From Fibrobacteria bacterium AD312 (lineage in GTDB: Bacteria; Fibrobacterota; Fibrobacteria; Fibrobacterales; Fibrobacteraceae): a stretch of DNA of 64,000 nt. Below the pieces are notes generated by a model, which did not search any database, had not been told where the DNA came from, and was given only the letters and a program-made list of their open reading frames with translations. Each line of letters begins with the position of its first letter. Position 1 is the stretch's first letter. The stretch spans positions 1-64,000 of the forward strand of contig LIUM01000018.1 of the NCBI GenBank assembly GCA_001462345.1, in the 5' to 3' direction. A program made the position numbers and the translations under genes. Below are positions 1,475-63,105 of this stretch, piece by piece.

Positions 1475-2023
1475 TTAAGGTAAGGCTAATTTTGCAATTT
1501 CTTCGCCTTGTTCTAGCAAGTGAATAGAAAATTTACCATGATTATAAAAGCCGAATGTGGGAGCGTATTCGCCTCTAGGTAAGCTAATGGAACCAGGGTT
1601 AAAGCAAAGAACTCCATTGACATTCAATTGTAATGAAGGACGATGGGTATGCCCTGAAAGAATAGCGTCTGTTTTATTTTTTGGGAATATAGAAGGTTCC
1701 CAGAGATGCCCATGCGTTAAAAAAAGACGGTAGGGCTGGTCTAATACGGGAGTATAATCAGCCATACAAGAAAAGGAGAGTAGTGTTTGATCCATTTCGG
1801 AGTCACAGTTTCCGCGTACGGCAATGATTTTTTCGGCTAAGGGATTTAATAGCTCTACAACTTCCATGGTATCGTGCCCGAGAGGAAGAGCATTCCTTGG
1901 CCCGTGATACAATAAATCGCCTAATAAAAAGAGATAATCGCAGTGATACGATTCAAAATAAGTCAATGCTTTTGCAGTGGCCGAAGCGCTTCCATGAATG
2001 TCTGATAAAATAAGAGCTTTCAT
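1475..2023 (-). CDS. YfcE-like metallophosphodiesterase
   Basis: A 182-aa calcineurin-like phosphoesterase of the YfcE/MJ0936 type. All metal-binding blocks are visible in order: SDIHGS (N-terminus), GDLLYHGP, RGNCDSE, THGH and SGHTHR. The family hydrolyses phosphodiesters in vitro and the physiological substrate is usually unknown. Full length for the family; cytoplasmic with no signal peptide. Its start codon lies only 24 bp from the divergent thiS start. Confidence 0.9.
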   Translation of the reverse strand: MKALILSDIHGSASATAKALTYFESYHCDYLFLLGDLLYHGPRNALPLGHDTMEVVELLNPLAEKIIAVRGNCDSEMDQTLLSFSCMADYTPVLDQPYRLFLTHGHLWEPSIFPKNKTDAILSGHTHRPSLQLNVNGVLCFNPGSISLPRGEYAPTFGFYNHGKFSIHLLEQGEEIAKLALP

Positions 2024-2047
2024 AAATTTTTATATATTAAGACGTAT

Positions 2048-2248
2048 ATGCAAATAAATTATAATAATACTAAGGTCGATGTGCCCACAAAAATATCACT
2101 TCATGCTTTTTTAGTTGATTTAGGGTGTGATCGTGCGGGTGTCGCTGCTTCAGTCAATGGACAAGTCATTTCACGTACAGAATGGCTAAAAACCCCTCTA
2201 AATGAGGGGGATTCCGTCATTGTTATCGAAATAGCTCAAGGTGGCTGA
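2048..2248 (+). CDS. thiS: Sulfur carrier protein ThiS
   Basis: A 66-aa ubiquitin-fold protein ending in the diagnostic Gly-Gly (VIEIAQGG), which is adenylated and thiocarboxylated to carry sulfur into the thiazole ring of thiamine. It also shows the family's RAGVAASVNGQVI-type core and RTEW. No other thiamine gene is within the window, so it is an orphan here. It could serve another ThiS/MoaD-type sulfur transfer, but length and tail fit ThiS best. Confidence 0.88.
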   Translation: MQINYNNTKVDVPTKISLHAFLVDLGCDRAGVAASVNGQVISRTEWLKTPLNEGDSVIVIEIAQGG

Positions 2249-2249
2249 T

Positions 2250-5200
2250 TTATTTCACCGTAATTAAGGGTGATGTTTCAGAAATGAGATAATTCCATTC
2301 GTCCCTTATTTTTTCATATTCATTTGGGTCTGCATAGAGAGCAAATGTGGACCAACGAATCCCTTCTTTCTTTTTCTCAAAAGAAACGTATTCGGGTTCT
2401 CTAGAAAGTTTACCAAGAGTAGTGGCTTCAAGAGTACCTGCATTTGATCTTAAATCAAATGTCGTTTCAAAATGAGTTTCGTGTGGCATACGGATAGGGT
2501 GGTGCCTTTTATTGACTTTAGGCATACGCATAAATTGGCGTTCCCAAGTATTAGGATAGCGCCCTTTAATGCCTCCATCGGATTTTCCAAAGTACCCTTG
2601 GCTTGTAAATACCGCCACTAAAATAAATGGCTTGTCAAAGGCGTTTGCATTTTCTGTTTTAATTTGTGAAATGGAAACATCTGGAATCCCTTGAGATAGG
2701 AGGGTTTCAAGCAATTGCTCTTGTTCTTTGAGGTCTTTGCCATAAAATTTATTTCTTAAGAAAGAAGCAAATTTGCCTTCTAATGATAAGGAATCCTTAA
2801 ATTCACTTTCTCCATTAGCATTAATAAACAATTGGTGGTGAATAAATACTTTATGCTCTTGATCATCTTCTAGAACAGGAGTCGTCGTTACTTTACTTTT
2901 TTCACCATCAATAATTAAAGCCACTTTCCCTTCCATGTCTAGAGGAATCGGGCGGTTATTGCCAAACTTATCCGTTGGATCTACCCACATTTCAGGGTAT
3001 TTTTCTCCTGCGGGGATGTGTACAATCATATGATTAAATTGTTGTATGGTAGGTAGTTTTTCAAAGCCCATATCGGTTAAATGAATGGCGACTAATTGAC
3101 TTGGAATCCCAATGACCTGAAGCATTTCTTTTAGGAGTAGACTTTGGTCTTTGCAATCACCACGACGTTCTTTTAATGTGAGTTCGGCTGTCTGAGGAAT
3201 TAAAGAATGGCCGCCAAAAGCAACTTCACGATAGCGAATATTTTCTCGAACAAATTGAATTACTGCAAATAGGGCTTCTTTTCCTATACGACTTCCCTTA
3301 ACTTCAAATGCTTTTTCACGAACAGAAACGGCACTCTTGAATTGATGGCGAATCATGTTTTCATAATCTTCGCCTACGTTTTGCCATTCTTGTTTTCCAG
3401 TCAATAAAATGCCAGCTCCAAAATCTCTATAGACAGGCATATAAAGTTCTTTGCGGATCACGACAGGCTCTTCTATTTTCCATTCTCTAGCATCAGGGTA
3501 ATCTATTCTTTGAAGAGGTCCATATTCTTCAGTGACGAATTTAGATGTGTCTGCATAGATTTTAAATGAAGTTTGAGCGACTGGGATATCTTTACTGGAC
3601 ATGTAATCGGTGTAAGGAATAATGCCTTTGTTTTCAAGACTCGTTCTAGAAACCTGATAATAAATAAAATCACCTGGTTCTAATGGAGGGAGTGGAAAAT
3701 GCGCTGTTTGTGATTCGTTGTCGCTACCAATTTCTGTGGCATAAGTGATATAGGCGTTTTGTAAAGTAGCTGTATGTTTTAAGGTCATTGTTGAATCATA
3801 TACTTCTAATGCATTCAAGAATATCCGATCAAATCCAGGTAAGAAATCAAATGCGAATTCTTGGTAGATGGCACTTCCTCTGCGATCTAAAATCTGCATA
3901 AGCATTTCTTCTGTTCTAACCCATGAGTTTCCTTTCTCTACTTTTAAAAGCTCTTTATTGTAGTGAATGACTGCTGGGTATTCTGCATCTTTCGCTTTAG
4001 TTGAAACCGTTGTATTAATAAGGCTATTTAAGCTTTTAGGGCGTGCTTCGATAGGAGTAATTGGTTTTTGTAATGTTCTATTGTCGGCTTTACCTAAAAA
4101 GGCTTTTGTCGCTGAAAGGAAACTTTTCGCTTCTTCGTTATCGCTTTTTAGTTGAATGGCTTGAGTTAAACTTTTTTCAGCTTGTCTAAAATTTTTAAGA
4201 TAAAATTGTGTTTTTCCGCGTTCTGTCCAAATGCGAGTGTCATTTTTGTCTTTTTGAATCACTTCTTCGCTAATCGCGAGAGCTTCATCATAACGTTTTA
4301 AGAATAGAAGAGCGTCCATTAAAGAAAGGCCTAAATCGATATTGGTACCAAAACGATTTCTGGAATGATAAAGTACTTCGACTGCTTCGGCGTATTGATC
4401 TAATCCCATATATGTTTTAGCAAGGTAGACTCCAAGTCTAGAGGAGGGCTGTTTGTCGTAAAGTCTTTGGACCACTAGTAATGATTGATTCCGTTGCCCT
4501 AATCCCCAGAGGGCATCGCTTAAGTTGATTACGTATTCTGGATTATTGGGGGTGTATTGTAAAGCAAGTTCAGCGAATTTTCTCGCGTTGGCGTAGTCAA
4601 AAAGCGCTTCGTACATTTCACCAAGAATAGAAAGCAACTTTCCGTTTTTTCGAACGAGATCCATTTGGGTAGAAAAGTAGCTGATGCCTGGGCCATAAAG
4701 CTCTTTTAATTGATATATAAAGCCACAGTTAATTAAATAAAGAGGCTCACTGGGATCTAAGCGATTGGCTCGTTCAAAGTAACTTAAGGCCACCAAAGGT
4801 TGGTTTTCAGATAGTCGTAGTAAACCCACTTGACTAAGAACAGCGGCATTAAATTTTTCTTGTTTTTCATCAGAAATTTTGGTGAAGTCTTTATTGAAAG
4901 TAAAGCCGTTGATTGCTCGATCCATTACTTTTTCATATTTTGGAAATAAAGCGCCTTGTGTCCAGCCAGCAATTAAAATGCCTCGACCGTTTTCCCAGAA
5001 AAAGCGTCCTTTGTATTTAAAATCGTATTTTCCAATATACTGGGTGAGTTCAAAATTTTGAATGTAAGAAGAGGCAGAACCACCACGTTCGCGAGATGTA
5101 GAAAGCGTGGAGTTGTTAGGGTCAACGCCTAGGCGTAAGAGCAGAACCTTAAACAAATCTTGAGAAGTGACTTCGTCAGGAGAAATAGTGGCTCCATATA

Positions 5201-7338: not shown

Positions 7339-7776
7339 ATGGAAAATATACAAACTTTAGCACACACAACATGGAATTGTAAATATCATATAGTTTTTGC
7401 ACCGAAATTCAGAAGAAAAGTATTTTATGGTGAAAAACGGCATGAAATAGGCAAAATGCTTCGATCGCTTTGTGAATGGAAAAAAATAAATATAGTGGAA
7501 GCGGAAGTGTGCTCTGACCATGTACATATGTTGTTGGAAATTCCGCCCAAATTTGCCGTATCAAGCGTAGTCGGTTTTTTAAAAGGGAAGAGTAGCTTAA
7601 AATTGTATGAAAGGTTTCCCGAGTTGAAATTTAAATACAAGAATAGGGAATTTTGGTGCCGAGGGTATTATGTTGACACGGCAGGAAAAAATGCAGTAAA
7701 AATAGCCAACTATATACGACATCAATTGGATGAAGATAAATATGGTGACCAGATAACGATGATGGGTAAATTGTAG
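7339..7776 (+). CDS. tnpA: IS200/IS605 family transposase TnpA
   Basis: A 145-aa Y1 HUH transposase. It shows the opening TTWNCKYHIVFAPKFRRKVF, the HUH pair in DHVHML (about residues 65-70) and the catalytic tyrosine region CRGYYVDTAGKN. The fold is complete, although the C-terminal tail stops early (MMGKL) compared with many relatives, which may not matter. It cuts and joins single-stranded DNA at subterminal hairpins. The element looks intact and potentially active. Confidence 0.95.
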   Translation: MENIQTLAHTTWNCKYHIVFAPKFRRKVFYGEKRHEIGKMLRSLCEWKKINIVEAEVCSDHVHMLLEIPPKFAVSSVVGFLKGKSSLKLYERFPELKFKYKNREFWCRGYYVDTAGKNAVKIANYIRHQLDEDKYGDQITMMGKL

Positions 7777-51789: not shown

Positions 51790-52684
51790 CTAATTTTTTA
51801 TACAACGGACGGAGTAGCCGACGATTTTAGATAAATTGACGGAACCTATATAGTTTTTACTGAACGTCATGTATCGAGGATTTGCATATATGGAGCTGTT
51901 TTCTGTTGCTGTCCACCAAGAGGTGGTATAGAGTCCATTATCAAAATTTAATGATAAGGTAAGGTGAATTTGACCTGCTGGGAAGGCTGAAAATCCAAAA
52001 GAATCTAGATTAGAGACATCAACATATTTTTTCCAACCAGCTTTTGATTTTAAATACGTTCCAGCTTCGGTGTTTCCACCTACAAAAGTTTCAAGAATCG
52101 TCCATTCTTCAGAAGAGGGGAGATGGAAGACTTCTGGGCAAATGCCTTGAACGGTTTCTGGCAAAGTGCATTCAACGTTTGTACAGCATGTGATTGGATT
52201 TTCGGAGTCTTCTGCAAGTGAAACAGAATCAATCGCTGCAGCCCAAGTGTACAAGCGACCTGCCACTTCGCCATTTTCAATTTTATTATGATAACACCAA
52301 GATTTTTCTAATAGACTGGGTGTTTTTACGCTATCGGCGTAGTCCAAGTTTTCTGCCATCCAAATTTGGCTACCAATAGTCACTATTTTATACACTTGAC
52401 CATCACGACTGTCAATGATAGTGTCGTAATTAATTTCTGGATTAAAAATATCTTCTTTTGAAAAACCATTATCAAAAAAAGTCATCTTTAAAGAGAGTAC
52501 TTGAGCTAGAAACAGGCGTTTTCGAAGAACTTGAAACTTTCACTGATGAGCTTGATACGGATGTATTTGAAGAGCTCAAAATGGTGCTGGATGAACTGAT
52601 GCCTTGTTCGTCATCATTATTGGGACTAGTGCTATTATTACTACAAGCGATAAAACTGAGAACGATACTTGTGATTGAGACCAT
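51790..52684 (-). pseudogene. FISUMP lipoprotein, frame broken at a T7 tract
   Basis: The first piece (from ATG 52684; the frame stays open to 52735) is a lipoprotein signal SIVLSFIAC, then a poly-Ser linker, ending TLFKDDFF stop. The second, to 51790, continues in the -1 frame with DNGFSKEDIF and a FISUMP domain (QIWMAENLDY, FHLPSSEEW, TTSWWTATENS, YSVRCIKN). On the coding strand the join is GAC-TTTTTTT-GAT (A7 at 52474-52480 on the + strand). Removing one T fuses the pieces cleanly. It could be phase variation, slippage, a sequencing error or a pseudogene. Confidence 0.78.
52509..52679. repeat. Direct repeat shared by the two FISUMP genes
   Basis: 52509-52679 matches 53519-53689 with one mismatch (52656/53666), at an offset of exactly 1010 bp. 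It spans the lipoprotein signal region and the poly-Ser linker. The identity points to recent duplication or gene conversion. Confidence 0.85.
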
Positions 52685-52773
52685 CTTGAAGACGTGTTTA
52701 ATCCTGTATTTTCCATATATTAAATTATGTTGCACAAAAATTGTAGTTCCGTTGGTTTTCTAAAGTGAGTCAT

Positions 52774-53715
52774 CTAATCTTTCACACAACGGACGGATAA
52801 TCCGGAGTAACTATAGCTGCTGCCCTTGTCAATAGAGGATTTTAGGTAGCTTATTTCCCTGTTGTAGGGGTCTCCGAAATTGTCTTTTGTAGCTGTCCAC
52901 CAGGAAGTGTAGCCGAGGAGACCAGTGTAGTTCGAAGAACCATAGTGGCCTGCAGGCAGGGCTGAAAATCCGTAAGAATCTGTTCCGCTGATATTACTCG
53001 TTGACCAACCAGAAGTCGCTTTTAGTTTGACTCCAGCCGAATCTCTACTTACATAGGTCTCGAGCGTATTCCATTCCGTAGTATCAGGCAAATGCCAGCC
53101 AGTTGGGCAAACAACCTTTGCTGCAGTCCAATTGTACAGTACTCCATATTTTGTGTAGTTGCTACTAGCCTTTGCTTCAGCTACAACTGTTCCATCGTAG
53201 TCGTATACATAGTATTTATCACTAAAACTTGATTTATCCGACATTGCATTCACGCTAGGCAAATAAGCTAGGTTTTCTGCCATCCAAGTTTGGGTACCAA
53301 TTTTAACCCACTTGTATTCTCTTGTAGGGGTTTCGCGAGAATCTGTGAATGTTCCACAACGACCCTCACTAACGCAAGTATTCCACTCTGGATATGAATA
53401 AGGAGTGCTTTCTACTGAAGACGAACTTGAAATAGAAGTATTTGAGGAACTCGAAACTTTCGCAGATGAACTAGAAACGGATGTATTTGAAGAACTAGAA
53501 TTTTTTATTGATGAACTTGAAACAGGCGTTTTCGAAGAACTTGAAACTTTCACTGATGAGCTTGATACGGATGTATTTGAAGAGCTCAAAATGGTGCTGG
53601 ATGAACTGATGCCTTGTTCGTCATCATTATTGGGACTAGTGCTATTATTACTACAAGCGATAAAATTGAGAACGATACTTGTGATTGAGGCCATTCCGAA
53701 GATGCGTTTGAACAT
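52774..53715 (-). CDS. FISUMP-domain lipoprotein with poly-Ser linker
   Basis: A 313-aa protein. The lipoprotein signal SIVLNFIAC is followed by a linker of repeated VSSSS/SSSSNTS units (about 30-100), then the Fibrobacter major paralogous domain: IGTQTWMAENLAYLPSV, LYNWTAAKVVCPTGWHLPDT, YGFSALPAGHYG, TSWWTATKDN, LSVRCVKD. Surface location is inferred from lipid anchor and linker. The domain's function is unknown. It is the intact neighbour of the frameshifted copy. Confidence 0.88.
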   Translation of the reverse strand: MFKRIFGMASITSIVLNFIACSNNSTSPNNDDEQGISSSSTILSSSNTSVSSSSVKVSSSSKTPVSSSSIKNSSSSNTSVSSSSAKVSSSSNTSISSSSSVESTPYSYPEWNTCVSEGRCGTFTDSRETPTREYKWVKIGTQTWMAENLAYLPSVNAMSDKSSFSDKYYVYDYDGTVVAEAKASSNYTKYGVLYNWTAAKVVCPTGWHLPDTTEWNTLETYVSRDSAGVKLKATSGWSTSNISGTDSYGFSALPAGHYGSSNYTGLLGYTSWWTATKDNFGDPYNREISYLKSSIDKGSSYSYSGLSVRCVKD

Positions 53716-53896: not shown

Positions 53897-56320
53897 TTAC
53901 TTTACTTTGTTTATTAGCAAGCGGGATTTGGCGATGCCATTTTGTTCAATAATCGCAATATAAAGTCCTTGATTAGGAGCAAGTTCATCTAAAGCAAGTG
54001 TCCCTTGATTGGATGTAAGCTCTTGTCTACGTAGGATCTTTCCGTTTATTTGATATAAGACAATATGACTACCAGCATTTGATGTATTGTAGTAGAGTAG
54101 ATCTCCTGCTTGGCGAAGATTGAAATTTCCTCCGAGAGTCAAATTCATTGGATTAATTTCTGTTGACGCTTCACTCACATTATAAGTGATGATATTTGAA
54201 TTAATTACACTTCCAGCTGCTTCAGTGGCTTTTGCTACAAGATAATAGGTCCCTTCCGTAGATGGAGTCCAGTTAAAACTATAAGGAGCATCTGTATCTG
54301 TACCAAGAGTCGTCATTGTCATGGTTGCTTTGTCTGTGGCATAGAATGTCACTGATGAAATTCCCTTGGAGGATTCAACGTTTGCGGTTAATTCAACAGG
54401 TTCTTTTGCTTTGCTTGTATTTTGATTCGAAGGAGTCCCTAATGCCACTGATGTAGGGATGATCATGGTCATATTAGGTGCTGGAGGAGTATCCATTCCC
54501 ACTCCAAAGTAAAAGCCAAGATTGGGTGGCTGGTTATATGAATTTTGTTGCCAAGAAATAGCGGTGCGGTAGTTTGGATCGTGCATTAACGTGTACATTC
54601 TTTGGGTAGTAGTAAATGGTGTTACCATAATAACTATGGAATCGCTTTTTGAATTTCTGAAAATGAGTTCTTCGCGCCAATCCCCTAAAATATCGGCTGT
54701 TAAACAGGGGTTTGATTTTGTTCCATTGTTGTCTGCGACATCGGTGATATTGTATAGGGTAGCCACTCTGTCTGTCCCTTGTTTACTCGCGTTCCATTTG
54801 GTAATCACCGTTCTATCATATAATTCGCGCATCACATCGCCATCCCACCAAACGGCAAAATTATAAGTATTGCCATTGCCTGCAGTGGTCGGTTGTACGG
54901 TCGATATTTTGGTGCCTTTGCTGTTATAAATTCCAGAACCATCGCTAGCCCAGAATTCATAGCCTTTATGATTTTCATCGATATCGGCGGTTAGGCATCG
55001 GCCAATATCGCCACTGGAGGTAAGAGACCATTGCTTTTGACCTGTAGCGGCATTGCGTAATAATACGCCTGGAACAGTGCTTCCATTGGCTCCTTCTAGG
55101 CAACCATAGTGCTCTAAACCTTCTTTGTCTGGGTCAATATCGGCTAAATGTTGTGAGTCGCCATGTCCAAAACCGGTGGAGTAAATCCCTTTTCCATTTT
55201 CATCTACAGCCATAGATCCGTATATAATCTCATCTCTCCCATCACCATCAATATCGCCAACAATCATATTATGGTAGCCAGAGCCAGAATAATTTGTAGG
55301 TGTTCCATTAGGGTCACTATCGTATGCCCATTTTTTACTTAAAGAACCGTTTTTGAAATCCCAAGCTTCTATTTTGATTCTATGGTAAATGCCTCGAGTA
55401 ATTATAAAACTAGGATTTTTGCCATCGAGATACGCTACAGACCACATGCATTTTTCAGCTCTGTGGCTTAATTGCCCGTCACTCATGCCTGCAGAACCCC
55501 ATTGCACCATAGGATCACGAGCGATATACTTATCCCATGCGATTTCTTTTCCTGTTTGACCATCAAAAATGGAAATATAATCGGGACCATGGATTCTGTA
55601 ATAAGTTGTGTTTAAGGCGGCGGTGGAGCGGTAATTGGTTTTGCCGTCGTTATCCCTGTCTCCAATTTTATTCCCTGCACCATCGGTAAAATCATCGGAT
55701 GTTCTGGTTGCGACTTCTGCCTTGCCATCGCCATCTAAATCGTACACCAAAAAATTGATTTCAACAGCGTTGATCATATTGGGCCCCAAATTGATGGCCC
55801 ACATAAATGTTCCATCCATTTTATAAGCTTCTAAATAGTGATATGTGGTGGCTGTAACCGTAGCATCAATCGAAAGTCGTTTAATTACAATTTCGTATTC
55901 ACCATCTCCATCAAGGTCACCAACAGAGGCGTCGTTGATTTCGTATTTATCAAAGGCTCCGTTGATTGCACGTACAGGAATCTTAAAAAACTCCTTTTCT
56001 AAAGAAGCCACTTCTTCAGAGAGTCCTTGTTCTATACCATTGATGACTGCTCTTACGGCGTACTTTTCACCATTATTTTGAGTATCAAGATAGTTGGATA
56101 CCGTTAAATCGGATTTGATTAATTGAGAACCCCTATAGAGGTTATAAGTCGCGTTATCTTTATATTCTGGCCCTAAAATACGCCATTGGACTAAAACACC
56201 TGCACTTGTCTTGACAGCCACTAAACCTCGATTTAGGTTTTCCATTTGACGCTGTGCGTAAGAACTAGTGGAAATGACTAGAATAAGCAATAGCCCAAAT
56301 AAAGAAGAAAATGGCTTCAT
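53897..56320 (-). CDS. Secreted rhamnogalacturonan lyase (PL11) with Ig-like domain and T9SS-like tail
   Basis: An 807-aa protein. The signal peptide is LFGLLLILVISTSSYAQ. The catalytic beta-propeller of PL11 follows: NLNRGLVAVKTSAGVLVQWR, repeated VGDLDGDGEYEI-type calcium-binding loops, and HLADIDPDKEGLEHYGCLEG. An Ig-like domain is near 640-720 (SSVTFYATDK, YSFNWTPSTEGTYYLVA). The last 80 residues (QINGKILRRQEL, GLYIAIIEQNGIAKSRLLI) resemble a type IX sorting domain. It cleaves the rhamnogalacturonan I backbone of pectin. Confidence 0.92.
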   Translation of the reverse strand: MKPFSSLFGLLLILVISTSSYAQRQMENLNRGLVAVKTSAGVLVQWRILGPEYKDNATYNLYRGSQLIKSDLTVSNYLDTQNNGEKYAVRAVINGIEQGLSEEVASLEKEFFKIPVRAINGAFDKYEINDASVGDLDGDGEYEIVIKRLSIDATVTATTYHYLEAYKMDGTFMWAINLGPNMINAVEINFLVYDLDGDGKAEVATRTSDDFTDGAGNKIGDRDNDGKTNYRSTAALNTTYYRIHGPDYISIFDGQTGKEIAWDKYIARDPMVQWGSAGMSDGQLSHRAEKCMWSVAYLDGKNPSFIITRGIYHRIKIEAWDFKNGSLSKKWAYDSDPNGTPTNYSGSGYHNMIVGDIDGDGRDEIIYGSMAVDENGKGIYSTGFGHGDSQHLADIDPDKEGLEHYGCLEGANGSTVPGVLLRNAATGQKQWSLTSSGDIGRCLTADIDENHKGYEFWASDGSGIYNSKGTKISTVQPTTAGNGNTYNFAVWWDGDVMRELYDRTVITKWNASKQGTDRVATLYNITDVADNNGTKSNPCLTADILGDWREELIFRNSKSDSIVIMVTPFTTTQRMYTLMHDPNYRTAISWQQNSYNQPPNLGFYFGVGMDTPPAPNMTMIIPTSVALGTPSNQNTSKAKEPVELTANVESSKGISSVTFYATDKATMTMTTLGTDTDAPYSFNWTPSTEGTYYLVAKATEAAGSVINSNIITYNVSEASTEINPMNLTLGGNFNLRQAGDLLYYNTSNAGSHIVLYQINGKILRRQELTSNQGTLALDELAPNQGLYIAIIEQNGIAKSRLLINKVK

Positions 56321-56448: not shown

Positions 56449-57140
56449 TAATGGACGTTGGTATGATTTTCGCGGAGATGCAATCATAAAATGGAGTGAA
56501 TGCAGACATGAATTTCGCGGAAATTACAATTATATTGAAACTGTTTGAATTTTCGAATTTTCGCCATTTGTTGATATAAACGCTGTAATATAATTATAAA
56601 CAAAAAATAGGCATGATTTTCGTGGAAAATTATTTAAAAATTATTTGAAAATCGTAAAATTTGAAACAAACCAATTTTCGGAAAAACCGATTATGGGACA
56701 GTTTTTATGGATTCAAATGAATTGAAAATAGGCATGATTTTCGCGATTAAAGAGCGTTATATTCCAGCAAAAGTAGAAATAATGGACGCTCGCATGATTT
56801 TAGCGAAACGTCATAAATAACACGAAAAATCATAATAAAATGAATTGAAAATAGGCATGATTTTCGCAATTAAAGAGCGTTATATTCCAGCAAAAGTAGA
56901 GATAATGGACGCTAGCAGGATTTTCGCGGAGATGCAATCATAAAATGGAGTGAATGCAGGCATGATTTTCGCGATTAAAGAGCGTTATATTCCAGCAAAA
57001 GTAGAAATAATGGACGCTCGCAGGATTTTCGCGGAGATGCAATCATAAAATGGAGTGAATGCAGGCATGATTTTCGCGGAGACGCAATCATAAAATGAAA
57101 TGAAAATGGGTATGATTTTCGCAAAACGTTATTATAATAC
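56449..57140. repeat. Mosaic repeat array built on a GCATGATTTTCGCG core
   Basis: Eleven occurrences of a 14-bp core (GCATGATTTTCGCG and variants) start near 56462, 56507, 56612, 56733, 56793, 56856, 56917, 56961, 57021, 57066 and 57111. Two linkers alternate. An A unit of about 60 bp contains AAAGAGCGTTATATTCCAGC and AATGGACGCTCGC. A B unit of about 45 bp contains GAGATGCAATCATAAAATGG and AGTGAATGCAGG. Units are near-identical but mixed, so it is not CRISPR (no unique spacers). It lies between pgpA and the PL11 gene, both on the minus strand. Confidence 0.85.
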
Positions 57141-57231
57141 AAAAAATCATAAAAAAAACGAAAATGTTGTTAAAAAACCGAATGTCTTATAACACGAAAA
57201 AGTCATGTAAAAAATAGCGAAAGGGCCTTTT

Positions 57232-57723
57232 TTACATCAATACAAAATTCGTGAAAACAGTCAAAATAACCCCTGCATATAGGCCGCCGAGCATATCATC
57301 GGCCATCACACCCCAAGCTTTAGGCAATTTTTCTAATTGATGAATGCCTAAGGGTTTTAAAATATCAAAAAAACGAAATAACGTAAAGCCGAGTAATAAA
57401 AGCCACGGGTATTCTAAAATGAATGAGAAAGGAATAAACGCAAAAGCAAGCCATTGCCCAGCCACCTCGTCAATCACAATCCAGCCAGGGTCTTTTGTTT
57501 GAGATTGTATCATGGCTTTATTTACAAAAGGGATTGCCATAAAAAAAATGGCAATGGAAAAAACAGAAAGTAAATTAAAGGGGAGTAGTAACGCGATTGG
57601 AAAAACAACGGCTGCTGCAAAAAAGCTTCCATAAGTCCCAGGCATTTTAGGAAGCAAACCAGATCCTAAAAAGGTGGTGATTAGTAAAGTCAAAAGGTCT
57701 ACTTTTTTACATTCCGGTTTCAT
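57232..57723 (-). CDS. pgpA: Phosphatidylglycerophosphatase A
   Basis: A 163-aa inner-membrane lipid phosphatase that dephosphorylates phosphatidylglycerophosphate. Signature blocks are LPKMPGTYGSFFAA, GWIVIDEVAGQWLAF and WGVMADDMLGGLYAG, with several membrane segments. It is full length and overlaps hflX by 17 nt. Confidence 0.95.
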   Translation of the reverse strand: MKPECKKVDLLTLLITTFLGSGLLPKMPGTYGSFFAAAVVFPIALLLPFNLLSVFSIAIFFMAIPFVNKAMIQSQTKDPGWIVIDEVAGQWLAFAFIPFSFILEYPWLLLLGFTLFRFFDILKPLGIHQLEKLPKAWGVMADDMLGGLYAGVILTVFTNFVLM

Positions 57724-61096: not shown

Positions 61097-62125
61097 ATGA
61101 ATAAACCAAACCCAGTAGAAAATATTGATATTAGCGAAGATTTTATCGACGAATTATCCGTTGATATATTAAAGTCGTTGCTCCAAGATCATACCAAATC
61201 AAAAGCAAAAGGGTATTCAGCCATTTTTTGGGCTACAGACAATTATAAAACAAAAGGCCCTGGATTTAGCTACTTTGACGAAATAAAACCAGAGAGCATT
61301 ACCCGAAAAAATGGAAAAGTAATTCAACCGCGAGTGGTCAAAGAACGTGCTGTGCAGATAAAGCGCAGTCGGGATATGGCTGAGGTTTTTACGCCAGCTT
61401 GGGTTTGCAATGCGCAAAACAATCTGGTTGATAACGTTTGGTTTGGGCGCGAGGGTGTATTTAACAATGAGATGGTTTCAAGCGAAGGAGTACACTCGTG
61501 GGTGGCCGAAGAGGCTAAAATTGAATTTCCCAAAGGAAAATCTTGGAAAGATTACGTTCTAAGTGCACGGCTTGAAATTACTTGCGGTGAAGCCCCTTAC
61601 ATTGTTAGTCGTTACGATGCGGCAAGCGGAATGAGTATTCCTATTAAACAGCGTATAGGCCTTTTAGACCGTAAATTACGTGTCGTTGGTGAAAATACAA
61701 CCGACGAACTCGAATGGTTTGAATGGGCCGAAAAGGCGTACAAAAGCACCTATGGTTATGAATGGCAGGGCGATAACCTGCTCCTTGCCCGCGAAGCTTT
61801 GCTAATGACGCTTGTGGATTACCATAAAGCTAAGTTTTGTAAAAAAGTGAGCAAATATAAAGAAATCCCCCTAGATATTTTGAATAATTTCGCGGTGATT
61901 ATTTCGTGGAATTTTTGGCAGATGGATGGTTTAAAAGGCGTTATTCCTTGTAGCTGTGAAGCAAAAAAAGAATCTTCATTCGATTTATTTAGCGGAGAAA
62001 CAATAAACAAAGTTGTTTGTGAAGGGTGTGAAAAAAACGACATCAAAAAGCATAACGGCATCTATTGTAAAATTATGGATTGGAACGCTGGGAAAAAGAT
62101 TAAGTTCATCGAGGTGATGAAATGA
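61097..62125 (+). CDS. 'Restriction endonuclease subunit M'-family protein
   Basis: A 342-aa protein with RDMAEVFTPAWVCNAQNN, VLSARLEITCGEAPYIVSRY, RIGLLDRKLRVV and YEWQGDNLLLAREALL, typical of proteins annotated as restriction subunit M in Bacteroidetes-type loci. No NPPY/DPPF catalytic tetrapeptide is visible, so methyltransferase activity in this chain alone is doubtful. Four cysteines in PCSCEAK and CEGCEK may bind zinc. It overlaps the Fic gene by 4 nt. Confidence 0.75.
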   Translation: MNKPNPVENIDISEDFIDELSVDILKSLLQDHTKSKAKGYSAIFWATDNYKTKGPGFSYFDEIKPESITRKNGKVIQPRVVKERAVQIKRSRDMAEVFTPAWVCNAQNNLVDNVWFGREGVFNNEMVSSEGVHSWVAEEAKIEFPKGKSWKDYVLSARLEITCGEAPYIVSRYDAASGMSIPIKQRIGLLDRKLRVVGENTTDELEWFEWAEKAYKSTYGYEWQGDNLLLAREALLMTLVDYHKAKFCKKVSKYKEIPLDILNNFAVIISWNFWQMDGLKGVIPCSCEAKKESSFDLFSGETINKVVCEGCEKNDIKKHNGIYCKIMDWNAGKKIKFIEVMK

Positions 62126-63105
62126 AGTTCCTTGCTAACGACACCATCATCTCATTAGTTGCAGATATTTCTGCTCAATTGGAACGATTTCAGATTCGCA
62201 TGGAACAAACCGATAGTTTAAAACTTCGTCGAATAAATCAAATCAAAAGCATTCATAGTTCACTAGCTATCGAAGGAAATACACTTAGCGAATCTCAGGT
62301 CAGTGCCGTTATTGAAGGAAAGCGAGTTGTTGCCCCTGCGCGTGAAATTTTAGAAGTAAAGAATGCGCTTGCAACCTATGAACTTTATCAAGAGCTTGAC
62401 GCTTATTCCGTACGCGATTTATTAAAGGCCCACGGAGTCATGATGAACGGGATAATGCCAGATGCAGGCCGCTTTAGAAATTGTGGTGAGGGTGTTTTTA
62501 AAGGAAACAAGTGCGTTCATCTTGCCCCACCACCAGATAGAGTTCCGTTTTTAATGAAAAATTTATTTCGATGGCTAAAGAGCAGCAAGGCTCATTGGCT
62601 TATTCGTTCTTGTGCGTTCCATTATGAATTTGAATTTATACATCCGTTCCGAGATGGAAATGGAAGAATGGGGCGTTTATGGCAAACACTCATTTTAAGC
62701 AAATGGAACCCGATTTTTGAACATTTGCCTGTAGAAAATTTAGTGTATGCGAATCAAAATGCTTATTATAATGCAATAAACGCATCTTCTGCAAAAGGGG
62801 AGTGCAGCCCTTTTGTAGAATTTATGTTAGAACAAATTTTGAAATCATTAAAACTGCTTCAAAATACAGGTGGTCAGAAAAGTGGTCAGAAAAGTGGTCA
62901 GAAAAAATCGACTATAGAAAAAGTTTTTGATTTGATAAGGAAAAATCCTTCGATTACCCGAAAAGAACTTGTTCAAGCTCTTTCGATTTCCCCTTCGGCA
63001 ATACAGAAGCATATTGCCAAATTAAAAACCGATGGGCGAATGAAGCGTATTGGTGGAGACAAGGGCGGGCATTGGGAAGTAAAAAAATTGGAGTTGCGTA
63101 AATGA
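62122..63105 (+). CDS. Fic-domain AMP-transferase with C-terminal winged helix
   Basis: A 327-aa Fic protein. The inhibitory helix motif SSLAIEGN (SxxxEG) is near residue 48, and the catalytic loop HPFRDGNGRMGR near 173. After a GQKSGQKSGQ repeat (12-bp tandem repeat in DNA) comes a winged helix (LVQALSISPSAIQKHIAKL). Both active site and inhibitory glutamate are intact. Fic enzymes AMPylate proteins; the target is unknown. It is sandwiched by 4-nt overlaps between the subunit M-like gene and the helicase. Confidence 0.92.
   Translation: MKFLANDTIISLVADISAQLERFQIRMEQTDSLKLRRINQIKSIHSSLAIEGNTLSESQVSAVIEGKRVVAPAREILEVKNALATYELYQELDAYSVRDLLKAHGVMMNGIMPDAGRFRNCGEGVFKGNKCVHLAPPPDRVPFLMKNLFRWLKSSKAHWLIRSCAFHYEFEFIHPFRDGNGRMGRLWQTLILSKWNPIFEHLPVENLVYANQNAYYNAINASSAKGECSPFVEFMLEQILKSLKLLQNTGGQKSGQKSGQKKSTIEKVFDLIRKNPSITRKELVQALSISPSAIQKHIAKLKTDGRMKRIGGDKGGHWEVKKLELRK

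Follow-up and report, generated by a model that had tools for sequence, protein, structure and literature searches.

The array described here lies within an 81.7-kb contig, away from the contig ends, and is intergenic, between pgpA and a lyase gene, in the stretch of 64,000 nucleotides that was analyzed as a whole (the window). The preliminary description had placed it upstream of a pectin lyase gene, which is correct as to position, while the gene itself encodes a PL11 rhamnogalacturonan lyase. The GC content of the array is 33%, against 39% for the window. On the minus strand, which is the direction of both flanking genes, each unit from 57123 to 56449 opens with the core CGCGAAAATCATGC, and the features are as follows.

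57232..57723, minus strand, flanking gene pgpA, phosphatidylglycerophosphatase A (PF04608)
56449..57140, minus strand, whole mosaic core-plus-spacer array
57079..57123, minus strand, unit B' (45 bp), core TGCGAAAATCATAC
57034..57078, minus strand, unit B (45 bp), exact core
56974..57033, minus strand, unit A (60 bp), core CGCGAAAATCCTGC
56929..56973, minus strand, unit B (45 bp), same sequence as 57034-57078
56869..56928, minus strand, unit A (60 bp)
56806..56868, minus strand, unit C (63 bp), second half like the flank toward pgpA, at about 57124-57165
56746..56805, minus strand, unit A (60 bp), core CGCTAAAATCATGC, same spacer as 56974-57033
56625..56745, minus strand, unit D (121 bp), first 31 bp or so common to unit C
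56520..56624, minus strand, unit E (105 bp)
56475..56519, minus strand, unit B (45 bp), changed at two core positions
56449..56474, minus strand, truncated unit A, at the end toward the lyase gene
53897..56320, minus strand, flanking gene, PL11 rhamnogalacturonan lyase (PF21348, E 8e-155; PF18370)

Between 56461 and 57123 a motif scan finds 11 cores (GCATGATTTTCGCG, at most two mismatches), all on one strand, a copy number that is read from a draft assembly and may be wrong; dinucleotide-shuffled sequences hold a mean of 0.64 and a maximum of 3. The 11-fold core of the preliminary description is thus borne out, as are its coordinates, and the 14-mer quoted there matches 3 of the 11 cores exactly. 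The mosaic array is real, and the earlier account of its composition is partly confirmed: the order of units on the minus strand, B' B A B A C A D E B A(truncated), is irregular as claimed, but the claim of two interchangeable units covers only 7 of the 10 core-to-core intervals, namely four of 45 bp (three B and one diverged B') and three of 60 bp (A). The remaining three, of 63 bp (C), 121 bp (D), and 105 bp (E), are neither A nor B, and there is partial likeness among B', B, C, and D immediately after the core. No open reading frame of at least 80 amino acids was found in the gap between pgpA and the lyase gene, and every one of the six frames of the array is closed by 7 to 23 stops, with a longest stop-free stretch of 54 codons, so that the claimed lack of an open reading frame holds and a coding origin is ruled out.

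The internal history of the array can be read in part from its repeats. A higher-order duplication of B+A, with a period of 105 bp, 2.3 copies, and a 94% match (TRF), is present, and the differences between units of the same type fall largely in the core: the third B copy (56475-56519) differs from the two identical B copies at two positions, both in the core, and the A copies at 57033 and 56805 likewise show two differences, both in the core. Across same-type copies of A and B, 4 of 28 columns vary in the core and 2 of 77 in the spacer (Fisher p = 0.042, a small sample). Core columns are thus more variable than spacer columns and give no sign of stronger constraint on the core within the locus; a first test on units of another genome, G004 (see below), found fewer variable core than spacer columns, but misaligned end units were included in it and it was given no weight. 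The concentration of differences in the core fits exchanges that break in or near it, although the numbers are small, and together with the B+A duplication it supports the suggestion that the array was grown by recombination.

When the whole array was used as a query against its own genome (G000), no second copy of the A or B units was found, and only the core recurred. Read in the other direction, the core is GCGAAANNCRTGCC (minus strand, 14 bp), which can serve as a unified core, and further intergenic arrays of G000, at least on contigs C23 and C43, carry it between spacers unlike those found here. Only about three loci clearly belong to the core family in this genome; they and two weaker look-alikes are listed here without the array described above.

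C43:22416-22678, intergenic core array, GCGAAATGCGTGCC, 28-bp tandem with irregular spacers
C23:66477-66659, intergenic core array, GCGAAAATCATGCC and variants
C24:26716-27057, weaker look-alike, CTCGCGAAAATCATGTTCCC in three 164-bp units
C13, weaker look-alike, units of CGCGAAATGCTAATTC

None of the five G000 arrays contains an open reading frame of 80 amino acids, and the orientation of the core relative to genes varies among them. On C24, positions 1875-3205 of stretch L039 hold three adjoining tandem arrays, a coding one of 39-bp repeats followed by intergenic 106-bp and 164-bp repeats, the latter two both carrying modules of the CTTCGTTGTTCAAGC type.

Among the relatives, one genome stands out. 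In a census of 111 genomes of the family, one per species, with the reversed pattern as control, exact matches to GCGAAANNCRTGCC number 12 in G000 (control, 0) and 67 in G004 (control, 0), a complete genome of another genus (MAG 'Fibrobacter sp. isolate AS10tlH2TH_258', JAAYJH01). The other 109 genomes mostly have 0 to 5 matches, about the control level, and a few have up to 11; two other species of the same genus as G000 show no excess of the core, both being MAGs that are about 75% complete. The G004 arrays are intergenic or lie at contig ends and have units of 46 to 107 bp, for example, GCGAAAATCGTGCCAGAAATGCNGGGATGCGTGNTTGAAATG. Two variants of the core, with ATCATGCC and TGCGTGCC endings, are exactly common to both genomes. 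A scan of 84,980 species genomes for double cores matched G004 contigs and five others, from Cellulosimicrobium, Bacillota, Actinoplanes, Breoghania, and Kitasatospora, in which the matches lie in long open frames or palindromes and were judged to be coding or chance. Of the 10-mers shared by the five G000 and 22 G004 arrays, the top ones fall in the core (score of 30 versus at most 16 in 100 shuffles), but the total of 72 is near the shuffled level of 56; since the G004 arrays were collected by a search for the core, this test is not independent, and it is the genome-wide core counts that provide independent evidence. As far as these comparisons go, the core alone is common to G000 and G004, and the putative link between them rests on 14 bp.

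The core recurs in other arrays and in another genus, which makes it a dispersed repeat family and not a one-off: GCGAAANNCRTGCC is found at nonorthologous intergenic sites in both genomes, and the spacers are private to each locus. It could be argued instead that the array is a minisatellite of this locus only and that its likeness to G004 and to the other loci is coincidental, given that the rest of the genome lacks the A and B units and that 14 bp is short. With 67 copies in G004 against none of the reversed pattern, and with both core variants exactly common to the two genomes, we consider such a coincidence very improbable.

That the core alone is common to two genera and to unlike spacers, in the same two variants, would also be expected if a DNA-binding protein present in both G000 and G004 recognized GCGAAANNCRTGCC, the clustered sites serving nucleoid organization, segregation, or local regulation. 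We regard this as unlikely, as the spacings (45, 60, 63, 105, and 121 bp here; 46, 55, 57, and 103 bp in G004) are not in a constant helical phase, conservation among same-type units is no higher in core columns than in spacer columns, the core is not palindromic, unlike many binding sites, and most relatives lack it.

Neither the neighborhood nor the orientation of the array is kept. In G002, of the same genus, a different gene directly follows pgpA and no array is present there, and the pgpA regions of the other relatives that were compared hold no comparable tandem array according to TRF, so a conserved neighborhood was rejected. In G004, a leader, GTCTCACACACGCCTGGCT, occurs in 126 copies and adjoins many of the arrays, while many leaders have no core nearby; it has 0 copies in the six other genomes searched, G000 included. 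Among the distinct leaders read, 47 of 63 have an open frame ending upstream, at a median of 124 bp. Where there is a single leader, the core is usually directed back toward it, whereas at the G000 locus it runs with the upstream gene, which indicates that orientation relative to genes is not maintained. The proposal of a regulatory array for the lyase gene is not supported as a general role, since the same core lies beside unrelated genes in varying orientation; if the array did influence the lyase gene downstream of it, this would be a side effect. A scan of the array for promoters and terminators found no excess. As a separate observation, GTCTCACACACGCCTGGCT in the G004 stretches L101-L105, L139-L153, and L177-L216 is mostly 3' of genes and sometimes flanks an intergenic array as an inverted pair, one copy at each end.

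A transcribed array yielding a regulatory or noncoding RNA, whether within the 5' leader of the lyase mRNA or as a precursor, would suit the fact that the cores run in the same direction as both flanking genes. Folding of unit A on the minus strand is modestly better than that of shuffles (z -2.6), with a possible GAGCGT/ACGCTC hairpin, and for the array as a whole z is -2.2 on the plus strand, somewhat better than shuffles, and -1.3 on the minus strand. Unit B and the units of other arrays fold no better than shuffles, no Rfam family reaches its gathering threshold (SNORA69 appears below threshold, with 21.2 versus 47 bits), and the orientation to genes varies as described above. The suggested source of noncoding RNA is thus not supported, the modest hairpin being confined to unit A, and we judge this reading extremely unlikely.

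Phage and plasmid collections gave no match to the array, so an origin from either was rejected, and a search of papers found no sequence that matches it. Like a CRISPR array, it is built of a short repeat with spacers, but here the spacers A and B recur, the repeats are 14 bp long and imperfect, and the spacing is irregular, with intervals of 45 to 121 bp; a CRISPR array was therefore rejected. The MIRU/VNTR loci of mycobacteria are, as here, tandem intergenic units of about 40 to 100 bp at several loci, but MIRU loci share the whole unit, whereas the present loci have only 14 bp in common. BOX and REP/BIME elements are modular, mosaic intergenic repeats made of hairpin elements, and the likeness lies in the modular mosaic and the intergenic position; the units of our arrays, however, have no conserved hairpin, and REP/BIME was rejected, there being neither a palindromic hairpin unit nor a REP-associated tyrosine transposase. 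The IS200/IS605 transposase at 7339-7776 of the window scores 30.8 bits against a RAYT cut-off of 80, and no Y1_Tnp was found in G004, the genome richest in cores; with a transposase that is not of the REP type and a core-rich genome without Y1, RAYT-driven spread of the core family is unlikely. A degraded copy of the start of this transposase was also seen, at about 1730-1850 of stretch L040, directly before the C23 core array.

The closest counterpart in architecture is the STAR element (Staphylococcus aureus repeat) of Staphylococcus, with 14-bp cores, 40- to 44-bp spacers that are locus specific, and a start signature (Purves et al. 2012, PMC3532100). STAR elements are numerous in two staphylococci and few or absent in their relatives, their loci are not common between species, and their mechanism and function are unknown; the same authors asked whether such repeats occur beyond staphylococci (PMC3532100). 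The array at this locus is likewise intergenic and consists of direct repeats of a 14-bp core between spacers that recur and measure about 40 to 45 bp, and the family has several loci per genome, locus-specific spacers, loci that are not conserved between species, probable local changes in repeat number, and a very uneven distribution among related species. The leader GTCTCACACACGCCTGGCT, which stands beside many G004 arrays and is absent from G000, recalls the conserved STAR start signature GTGGGACAGAAATGAT. The differences are that the STAR core, T(G/A/T)TGTTG(G/T)GGCCC(C/A), is unrelated to GCGAAANNCRTGCC (the window holds 0 matches to TNTGTTGNGGCCC with one mismatch allowed), that the host belongs to another phylum, and that unit lengths here are more varied (45 to 121 bp). 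The STAR plan is present and the sequence definition is not, so we call these arrays STAR-like and not STAR elements. The earlier statement that no match was known is accurate for Rfam, phages, plasmids, and papers, but not for the core, which recurs elsewhere in the genome and in one relative, nor for the architecture; the first interpretation as a whole is partly supported.

Our results lead us to propose that the locus is probably one of a dispersed family of noncoding, intergenic core-plus-spacer arrays, built like STAR elements, unrelated to them in sequence, and growing by local duplication. The locus may have been seeded by a core-bearing unit and then have grown and shrunk through slipped-strand events or unequal recombination, exchanges tending to break at the core and thereby possibly joining the unlike units A, B, C, D, and E in irregular order. 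Arrival of the core at new loci may need a factor in trans. A more specific idea, which we think quite improbable, is that a few Fibrobacteraceae possess an enzyme or architectural protein that acts in trans, recognizes GCGAAANNCRTGCC, and joins or copies spacer units at the core; if so, a dedicated array-building system would have produced the arrays.

In the more than two decades since STAR elements were described, neither a mechanism nor a function has emerged for them. Meeting the same plan in a different phylum, around an unrelated core, suggests that a short core with locus-specific spacers is a general outcome. It is now possible to compare what the cores share and what core-rich species have that their relatives lack. 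Such arrays also cause breaks in MAG assemblies, and they are potential strain markers.

Another dispersed family, larger than the first, with the core GTTGACGGAAATGG and 43-bp units, was observed in G000. Copies lie at 44-151 of the window and on contigs C1, C2, C3, C6, C8, C10, C16, C19, C22, C26, C31, C34, C43, and C49, several contigs, including that of the window, starting or ending in this family. Matches number 70 in G000 (control, 1), 19 in G001 of the same genus, and 0 to 3 in six other genomes. At the end of these arrays there is often a long, imperfect palindrome with a loop that is palindromic in turn and varies between copies (TTGTGTGGCACACAA, TTGAATAGAATTCAA), which suggests selected hairpins.

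Elsewhere in the window, positions 51790-53715 encode FISUMP-type proteins with serine-rich tandem repeats (TIGR02145 confirmed for 52774-53715), and a short open reading frame at 52472-52735 carries a serine-rich stretch nearly identical to theirs, suggesting duplication. At 61097-63105, a type II DNA methyltransferase (PADLOC MTase_II, E 5e-113) adjoins a Fic-domain protein (SoFic-like, E 6e-45), and the two may possibly form a defense or modification pair.
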